From the NCBI GenBank assembly GCA_012728015.1, contig JAAYFY010000087.1, forward strand, positions 1 to 32,294: DNA of 32,294 nt. Direction: 5' to 3'. The position numbers were made by a program, and so were the translations under genes. Position 1 is the first letter of the stretch. Every line of letters begins with the position of its first letter. Origin of the DNA: Clostridiaceae bacterium (lineage in GTDB: Bacteria > Bacillota > Clostridia > DSM-8532). The notes beneath the pieces are model-generated. The model was given only the letters and a program-made list of their open reading frames with translations. It was not told the origin of the DNA and made no database searches. Shown in pieces: positions 1 through 2,278 of the stretch.

Positions 1-2
1 AA

Positions 3-180
3 ATAAAAAACTCATGTCAAAACCCCACCACCCTCAAACCCTTGTCCCATCTATTCTCAACCCTATTTTTCCAATCTCATCCACATAAAAAAGTCATGTC
101 AAAAATCACCCTATTCCCTTGCTCCTATCTCCTATTTTATTCCTATTTTTAGCCCCATTTTAGATAAAAAAGTCGTGTCA
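3..180 (+). repeat. Left-end transposase-site-like repeats (three spaced copies)
   Basis: Three copies of the motif ATAAAAAAGTCATGTCA lie at 3-19 (variant ACTC), 85-101 (exact) and 164-180 (GTCGTG variant), about 80 bases apart. A weaker partial copy (AAAAAATCATGG) is at 311-322. Short CCCTATTTT pieces occur between them but are not regular. The wide spacing resembles a Tn7 left end. Confidence 0.75.
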
Positions 181-352
181 TAAATAGGGATAAGTATCAA
201 GGGAAAAGGGGAAAGTTTTTTTCAATATCTTTCATCAATAATCCTTTCAAACCCTTTAAAATCAATATTTTTAGCCGTATACCTTACTCCTTGAGCCTAG
301 TAATCCTAAGAAAAAATCATGGCTCCAATAAGGTTTTCTACCCTATTTTCAC

Positions 353-418
353 CATGACTTTTAACATGACTTTTTTATTTTTAACACAACTTTTTTATTC
401 GTGACACGAGTTTTTTTG
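353..418 (-). repeat. Right-end transposase-site-like repeats (four packed copies)
   Basis: On the minus strand the motif recurs at 402-418 (outermost, AACTCGTGTCA variant), 382-398 and 362-378 with an exact 20-base period. A shortened copy at 353-362 abuts the third. Dense packing next to glmS matches the right end of Tn7, which is the end that lies nearest glmS. Confidence 0.75.
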
Positions 419-427
419 GGTTATACA

Positions 428-451: not shown

Positions 452-2278
452 CTACTCCACCGTCACGCTCTTGGCGATGTTCCTGGGCTTATCCACGTCG
501 TTGCCTTTCATAACCGACATGTAGTAGGCAAAAAGCTGGAGGGGTATTACGGCCGTAACGGGCGCTATTAGCGGATCGATGTCCGGGATGGCGATTACCG
601 CGTCGGCCGCCTTTTCAGCCTCCGGGGCATGTTTTCTTGAGGTAATGGCCAGTACCACCGCGCCCCTGGCCTTCACCTCCCGGATATTGCTAACCATTTT
701 TTCAAAGAGCAAGTCCTGAGTCATTGGGCAAATCACGAGGGTTCCATTTTCAACCAGGGCTATGGTGCCGTGCTTCAATTCCCCCCCGGCGTAGGCCTCG
801 GAATGTATGTAGGATATTTCCTTAAGCTTGAGGGAGCCTTCCATGGAAAGGGCATAATCAATGTTCCGGCCGATAAAGAAGATACTCCCTGCATTGTAGT
901 GCCCCGCGGCAAAGCGCTGTATTTCTTTCTTATCCCGCAGGATTTCCTCCATATTCCCGGGAAGACCCATGAGCTGGTCAAGATAATAGCGTATGTCTTC
1001 GTCATTTACTGTTCCCCTGATCTGGCCAAATTTCAGGGCCAGGAGGTACAGGACTGTAAGCTGCGCGTTATACGCCTTGGTGGATGCAACGGCAATCTCG
1101 GGTCCTGCAAAGGTGTAGAGCACATCATCGGATTCCCTTGCGATGGAGCTTCCCACCACGTTTACTATGGATACCACATGAGATCCCTTTTTCCTGGCTT
1201 CCCGGAGGGCCATAAGGGTATCCAGTGTTTCTCCCGACTGGCTTATGATTATGGTAATCTGTTTTTTGTCCACCATGGGATCGCGATACCGGAACTCGGA
1301 GGCAAGATCTGCTTCAACAGAGATCCGGACCAGCCTTTCAATAGCGTATTTCCCCACCACTCCTGCATGGTAGGCCGTACCGCAGGCTACGATATTGATC
1401 TTTTCACAGGACCTTACCATTTCATCGGTAAGGCTGAAGTTTTCAAACAGGATCTGCCCGTCCCTTATACGCGGGCTTATGGCTGCCTTTACAACGGCAG
1501 GTTCCTCGCAGATCTCCTTCATCATGAAATGCTCGTAGCCGCCTTTTTCGGCAGAGGCCACATCCCAGTCCACATGGAATACTTCCCTGTAAACCCGTTC
1601 TCCCAGCAAGTTGAAGATCTCGGCCCTACCCGCCGAAATGCGTACAACTTCCCTGTCTTCAAGGATTATTACGTTCTTCGTATATTCCAATATAGCCGGG
1701 ATATCAGAAGCGATGTAGTTCTCATCCTTTCCTAAACCCACGATGAGCGGGCTGTCCTTCCTTGCCGCAACGAATTCATCGGGACAGTCGGTGCAGATAA
1801 CCCCAAGAGCATAGGCGCCTTCCATTTCGTTCAAGGTTTCAATAACGGCTTTGACCAGGTCATCCCTGTAGTTGTAGTCAATGAGGTTTGCCACTACCTC
1901 GGTGTCGGTCTCCGATTGAAAATTGTAGCCCCTGGAGATCAGAAAATCCTTTAGCTTTATGTAGTTCTCAAGGATTCCGTTATGGACCACGGCGATCTTC
2001 CCGCCGCTGCTCACATGGGGATGGGAATTGGCGTCGCTGGGCTCTCCATGGGTAGCCCACCGGGTATGCCCTATTCCCATATGCCCCTTAAGGTCGACCG
2101 AGTTCAGTTTCCCCTCAAGGGCGGCAAGTCTTCCCTTGGTCTTGACCATCTTGATCTTTCCTTCATGGAGTATGGCGATTCCCGCCGAGTCGTATCCTCT
2201 GTATTCAAGCCTTTTAAGCCCGTTCATGAGGACAGGGGTTGCCTCCCTGCTCCCCACATAGCCAACTATTCCGCACAT
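452..2278 (-). CDS. glmS: Glutamine--fructose-6-phosphate aminotransferase (isomerizing)
   Basis: GlmS converts fructose-6-phosphate and glutamine to glucosamine-6-phosphate, the first step towards UDP-GlcNAc for peptidoglycan. The 608-residue product matches the usual family length. It starts Met-Cys-Gly-Ile-Val-Gly, with Cys2 being the N-terminal nucleophile of the class II glutaminase domain; GHTRWATHG is the following conserved glutaminase motif. Two SIS sugar-isomerase domains follow (for example CGTAYHAG, SQSGETLDT, and SYIHSEAYAGGELKHG), and the protein ends in the conserved KSVTVE. The frame is open 24 codons further upstream, but the ATG at 2278 has a good AGGAAAGGAG site and gives the required Cys2. 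The leader contains a glmS ribozyme, so the gene is repressed by its own product. A Tn7-like element sits 25 bp past the stop. Confidence 0.98.
   Translation of the reverse strand: MCGIVGYVGSREATPVLMNGLKRLEYRGYDSAGIAILHEGKIKMVKTKGRLAALEGKLNSVDLKGHMGIGHTRWATHGEPSDANSHPHVSSGGKIAVVHNGILENYIKLKDFLISRGYNFQSETDTEVVANLIDYNYRDDLVKAVIETLNEMEGAYALGVICTDCPDEFVAARKDSPLIVGLGKDENYIASDIPAILEYTKNVIILEDREVVRISAGRAEIFNLLGERVYREVFHVDWDVASAEKGGYEHFMMKEICEEPAVVKAAISPRIRDGQILFENFSLTDEMVRSCEKINIVACGTAYHAGVVGKYAIERLVRISVEADLASEFRYRDPMVDKKQITIIISQSGETLDTLMALREARKKGSHVVSIVNVVGSSIARESDDVLYTFAGPEIAVASTKAYNAQLTVLYLLALKFGQIRGTVNDEDIRYYLDQLMGLPGNMEEILRDKKEIQRFAAGHYNAGSIFFIGRNIDYALSMEGSLKLKEISYIHSEAYAGGELKHGTIALVENGTLVICPMTQDLLFEKMVSNIREVKARGAVVLAITSRKHAPEAEKAADAVIAIPDIDPLIAPVTAVIPLQLFAYYMSVMKGNDVDKPRNIAKSVTVE

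Follow-up and report, generated by a model that had tools for sequence, protein, structure and literature searches.

The window analysed here, the whole stretch of 32,294 bases, is an entire contig (G000:C52), so that base 1 is a contig end and anything to the left of it is off-contig. At this end lies a gene-less segment (1-427, no strand assigned), followed by glmS (452-2278, minus strand; 608 amino acids), the target gene of attTn7, whose stop codon (452-454) is separated by 24 bp from the right tip of the segment. The GC content, about 0.5 in glmS, drops to 0.30-0.35 within 1-427, and the interior of the segment is without a long reading frame; an Rfam search gave no match. The initial annotation had read this segment as a Tn7-like element of roughly 434 bp, bearing both ends but no transposition genes and facing glmS with its right end, and it is primarily this reading, together with the suggestions made there about its origin, that we examine below.

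The ends are defined by the motif AAAAASTYRTGTYA, which is matched perfectly in forward orientation at 6-19, 88-101 and 167-180 (plus strand), taken from motif match and spacing (82 and 79 bp) as the left-end TnsB-type sites L1, L2 and L3, and in inverted orientation at 362-375, 382-395 and 402-415 (minus strand), taken from motif match and a period of exactly 20 bp in both intervals as the innermost, middle and outermost right-end TnsB-type sites. Allowing up to two mismatches, the motif occurs nine times in the 32-kb window, against a mean of 1.9 and a maximum of 5 in 100 dinucleotide shuffles. The three spaced forward copies and three of the packed inverted copies of the initial annotation are thus perfect, whereas the fourth packed copy that it counted (345-362, minus strand; 83% match) is degenerate, lies out of the 20-bp register and constitutes one arm of the stem of a strong, intrinsic-terminator-like hairpin (312-362, minus strand; RNA fold -22.7 kcal/mol, z -5.7, none of 200 shuffles equally stable). 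As judged from its predicted fold, this hairpin would halt transcripts coming in from glmS. The right tip, TGTATAA (421-427, minus strand; TTATACA on the forward strand), is the same or nearly the same in the copies of the two families described below. Intact copies of the family to which the segment belongs, family 1, start with TGTATACA(A/C)ATAAAAAACTC, or in one case with TGTATATAGATAAA, from which it follows that the left end in the window misses 7 bases, TGTATAC or a close variant, and that of the 434 bp of the element the window holds 427, counted from its right end, the missing 7 bases and the full length being as first proposed. Between the ends, a segment at 235-273 (no strand assigned) is common to minis of the sister family 2, with 87% identity over 39 bp to an element in the genome G031; it contains no open reading frame, and in the copies examined in-frame stops stand on either side of it. 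A coding remnant (IDFKGIE) had been considered for this conserved interior and was dismissed, the frames being just short ones between stops.

The position of the right tip relative to glmS is that expected of attTn7. Tn7 inserts "about 20 bp downstream of glmS" (PMC2918618), and in most element-bearing genomes right ends of this type placed after glmS have their tip 24-26 bp past the stop codon. The presumed 5-bp target duplication, GCGGG (428-432, no strand assigned), whose left partner is off-contig, lies within the remains of the glmS terminator and equals the GCGGG of the corresponding site in a close relative, G004, in which the site is element-free and the glmS terminator uninterrupted. 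Since the GCGGG of the window matches the terminator stem of G004, the insertion appears to have split the glmS terminator, and the hairpin of the element may, we infer, replace the terminator so broken. When the neighbourhood of the empty G004 site was used to look for the missing terminator half elsewhere in the genome of the window, nothing convincing emerged. End layout, right tip and attTn7 position all agree with the initial Tn7-like reading, and taken together they support the view that 1-427 is a gene-less Tn7-like mini-transposon that occupies attTn7 and has its right end turned to glmS. Further repeat arrays, built on different motifs, occupy roughly the same place downstream of glmS at other loci (L176, L181, L192, L195, L240) and apparently represent additional Tn7-like end families.

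How widely, then, are such mini-elements distributed? Family 1 includes, besides the window copy, seven complete copies of 434-436 bp in four other Clostridia genomes, 86-89% identical to it. Family 2 has the motif AATAAASTYVRYTC, a length of 450-540 bp and the same layout, with a hairpin likewise beside the right end. The right-end pattern of three sites with a 20-bp period was found in 38 of 391 Clostridia genomes, its mirror-image control in 2 of 391. The genome of the window carries a single copy in 2.19 Mb, which disposes of the concern that the same repeats might be scattered throughout it. The single-contig genome G031 contains a solo 540-bp family-2 copy within a gene for a Mutator-type transposase, with GCTGG on both sides as a perfect duplication, such that the transposase frame runs on across the junction once the insert and one GCTGG are removed; a second copy, identical to the first, lies near glmS. 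The mini-elements, in other words, move. Several of them are without matching duplications, as would be expected after recombination, yet these cases weaken the pattern.

These data bear directly on the notion that the segment is an immobile intergenic array, serving as a transcription terminator for glmS or as a regulatory repeat. The strong hairpin towards glmS and the occurrence of arrays of this type after glmS in many genomes would both accord with such a role, but the element-free site of G004 is equipped with its own terminator, copies exist elsewhere, including the one in an insertion-sequence gene with its exact duplication, and in relatives minis are nested inside one another; we regard this possibility as scarcely credible.

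Right-hand minis can be recognised on their inner side by an additional right-end-like array, placed about 78 bp to the left of L1 and continued by a conserved spacer with CCTAACTA at its end (L014:3690-3800, L117:590-656, L208:14625-14713 and others). Between minis downstream of glmS, G031 harbours an anti-phage gene set, DUF1156-PLD/SNF2-DUF499-DUF3780 (L114:15370 to L115:5067). Neither mini was found in the plasmid DNA searched; the pattern gave thirteen hits in viral contigs, and tblastn gave no tns match there.

An element without genes must presumably be served by a transposase encoded elsewhere. TnsB was not found in the genome of the window, which is 99.87% complete, by the same protein search that was positive in seven genomes, and these seven are the only ones in which it was detected among 41 checked. 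A Pfam profile search for TniQ in this genome and its order was likewise negative; as the profile matched no control genome either, the absence of a helper leans on the TnsB search. With no gene in 1-427 and with none of TnsB, TniQ and Mu_transpos_C found in this genome, the window copy does not qualify as an autonomous Tn7-like transposon. The Mu_transpos_C matches that the search of genome and order did give proved to be short DDE+AAA units, two of them beside a DUF6431 gene, and these, like one more DDE+AAA unit among the candidates, had no matching ends in the stretches examined.

Such a picture is reminiscent of a plain non-autonomous, MITE-like relative of Tn7, that is, an internally deleted element moved in trans by cut-and-paste, whose helper has since been lost, the larger structures described below then being separate composite transposons. 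The short, gene-less form with intact ends, the 5-bp duplication at the G031 copy and the lack of a detected TnsB in most carriers are all consistent with this possibility. The label is nonetheless a loose one, because a full-size element that bears genes between these left and right ends, and whose internal deletion would yield the mini, was not found, and where tns genes are linked to minis they lie outside them. The composition of these larger structures and of their TnsA, considered in turn below, provides further reasons for thinking it unlikely.

Full-size relatives are available in two genomes, both represented by single contigs: G364 (3,843,301 bp) and G245 (4,897,678 bp). Both encode tnsA, tnsB, tnsC and a TnsD containing TniQ and TnsD domains. 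Around a unit of 57,651 bp, G364 has two direct 451-bp minis without a single difference, and TTATC lies beyond them on either side; around 70,812 bp, G245 has two direct 435-bp family-1 minis, equally free of differences, and GAAGT beyond them. Two identical 528-bp minis also bound a 1,341-bp unit in G364, with AATAC outside; older minis enclose the units of this genome, the outermost pair of ends agreeing at GGAGT over 64,103 bp. In both large units, the only two such pairs documented, tnsABCD lies between the two minis and outside each mini's own ends. Identical paired minis, whose inner flanks (TAGTTAG.../...CTAACTA) moreover recur in many genomes, are not what independent insertions of a MITE-like element would yield. 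The mini family tracks the type of tns operon, family 1 occurring with L206 and L211, and family 2 with L216, L207 and L214. A ParM-type actin and a DnaG-like primase are common to the two large segments, and a XerC/D-like recombinase is present in one of them; the proteins related to this ParM that occur in the plasmid collection are ParM/StbA proteins, carried for the most part by plasmids of Clostridia and related groups. A free circular donor of the TnsB clade was not found, there being no plasmid record with TnsB at 60% identity or above.

Several further features of these operons deserve mention. Directly before tnsA, the two tns operons share a conserved hairpin-forming leader, TGCCATTGACA...TGTCAATGGCA (L216:16040-16105, L206:44-115), which has no match in Rfam, and in each operon a gene with a SEC-C motif follows tnsD, adjoining a mini (L216:7436-9292, L206:7256-9604). 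G245 also carries a broken operon of the G364 type (L207:9039-15531), about 96% identical, with tnsB and tnsC split or shortened, and in G001 a tnsD remnant (L014:2760-3089; 43% over 115 amino acids) has a family-1 right end on one side and a family-2 mini on the other.

The state of the transposase subunits is of particular relevance to how such structures could arise. Whereas the DDE-region motifs of TnsB look preserved in this clade, each of its eleven TnsAs has Ser or Thr at the position corresponding to Asp114 of E. coli TnsA, which we take to be a catalytic residue under this numbering. The Asp is kept in the E. coli structure 1T0F, as it is in the six further Tn7-like TnsAs aligned for control, of which five are plasmid-borne and one comes from a clostridial genome. 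From this substitution the TnsA of the clade is predicted to be inactive as a nuclease, a loss that sits poorly with cut-and-paste transposition of a MITE-like element. A V. cholerae TnsA D90A mutant has been studied (PMC8188705), and experimentally the mutation of the TnsA active site, or the absence of TnsA, leads to cointegrates, in which the donor backbone lies between two transposon copies (PMC8188705; PMC11406308). A structure of this type, with a plasmid-like segment between identical direct copies and 5-bp duplications outside, is present in both G364 and G245.

Since the known structure of a cointegrate is the one seen here, the simplest account is that it is the mini which transposes, and that the large unit represents a donor circle that has become integrated. 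In this process TnsB, encoded outside the mini, would bind the mini ends in trans and, TnsA being predicted dead, would cut the 3' strands only; transposition would then copy the mini and join the entire donor circle to the target, giving a cointegrate. The outcome would be a plasmid-like segment with tnsABCD between two identical direct minis and 5-bp duplications outside, the structure present in the relatives. Homologous recombination, or a tyrosine recombinase of the circle, could subsequently act between the direct minis such that the circle is lost, and what would remain is a solo mini with its duplication, as is seen in G031, the route to which would be the one outlined.

One argument against this scheme is that identical outer duplications would also result if the large unit were moved in its entirety by cut-and-paste at its outermost ends. 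The large units would on that account move whole, their terminal minis being direct repeats kept identical by gene conversion, with solos again arising by recombination. The outer duplications at the units of 57,651, 70,812 and 1,341 bp, as well as the location of tnsABCD within both large units, are compatible with such movement. It leaves unexplained, though, why every terminal repeat has a complete pair of left and right ends and why the Asp of TnsA has been lost, and we deem it decidedly improbable. We favour as the best explanation, and consider rather probable, that the mini is a true transposon, that TnsB with a dead TnsA fuses a donor circle into attTn7 and that recombination leaves the solos. 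The broader proposal would be that a Clostridia-wide Tn7 lineage has lost the TnsA nuclease, that the gene-less mini is the integration device of a plasmid-like circle whose TnsABCD drive cointegration at attTn7, and that recombination between minis excises the circle and leaves solos; for this the balance seems to us an even one.

On the favoured explanation the window copy is most likely a solo, although it is possibly one member of a pair. The initial annotation had offered mobilisation in trans and the scar of a larger element as alternatives; both are possible, and, because full-size elements have identical minis at their two borders and solo minis bearing 5-bp duplications are also known, they may be two aspects of a single process.

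If this explanation is correct, it would mean that a TnsD-guided Tn7 has in nature exchanged cut-and-paste for replicative integration, and it would reveal a route by which whole plasmid-like elements enter the attTn7 safe site and leave it again. It would also imply that surveys centred on TnsB miss most of the mini family, many carriers having no detectable cognate TnsB. The small gene-less ends, with their built-in terminator and conserved target, are of practical interest, genetic tools for thermophilic Clostridia being few.

Tn7-like ends at attTn7 are already well known. The published layout of Tn7 ends is one of 3+4 TnsB sites, and tandem or nested Tn7-like ends have been mentioned (PMC8649781). 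In the literature searched, outside which most subscription papers lie, neither gene-less minis as terminal repeats nor a TnsD-type Tn7 with a dead TnsA was described. With Tn7 and the TnsD-type Tn7-like elements the minis share TGT/ACA tips (the left one being off-contig in the window), three spaced left and packed right sites, a right end towards glmS with insertion about 24 bp past the stop, and a 5-bp duplication (GCTGG, TTATC, AATAC and GAAGT in relatives, the window copy having the right half, GCGGG, on the contig), and the linked relatives encode TnsABC as well as TnsD. They differ in that the mini is gene-less between its ends, with three rather than four clear right sites, that the linked TnsA is without the catalytic Asp and that the tns genes are outside the mini. 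The predicted replicative route and the cointegrates recall type V-K CAST and Tn5053-type elements, which are without a working TnsA (PMC8188705, PMC11406308). Unlike these, the clade keeps a TnsA gene with an altered active site, its target is attTn7, presumably via TnsD, and the tns genes of the natural cointegrates are in the donor part.

In the IS26-type translocatable units, or pseudo-compound transposons, a circle with one copy integrates and ends between two direct identical copies. The minis resemble these units in that a circle with one copy would become flanked by two, but here the repeat is gene-less and has Tn7-like ends, and the transposase would be carried by the circle. With MITEs they have in common a length of a few hundred bp, the lack of genes, terminal sites, a target duplication and several copies in some genomes, whereas no parental element with the interior of the mini is shown and the minis serve also as the paired terminal repeats of large elements. 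Finally, by analogy only, they are comparable to the solo LTRs of retrotransposons, single repeats that retain the target duplication of the complete element and are explained by recombination between direct terminal repeats, the difference being that the minis rely on DDE DNA transposition and not on reverse transcription.
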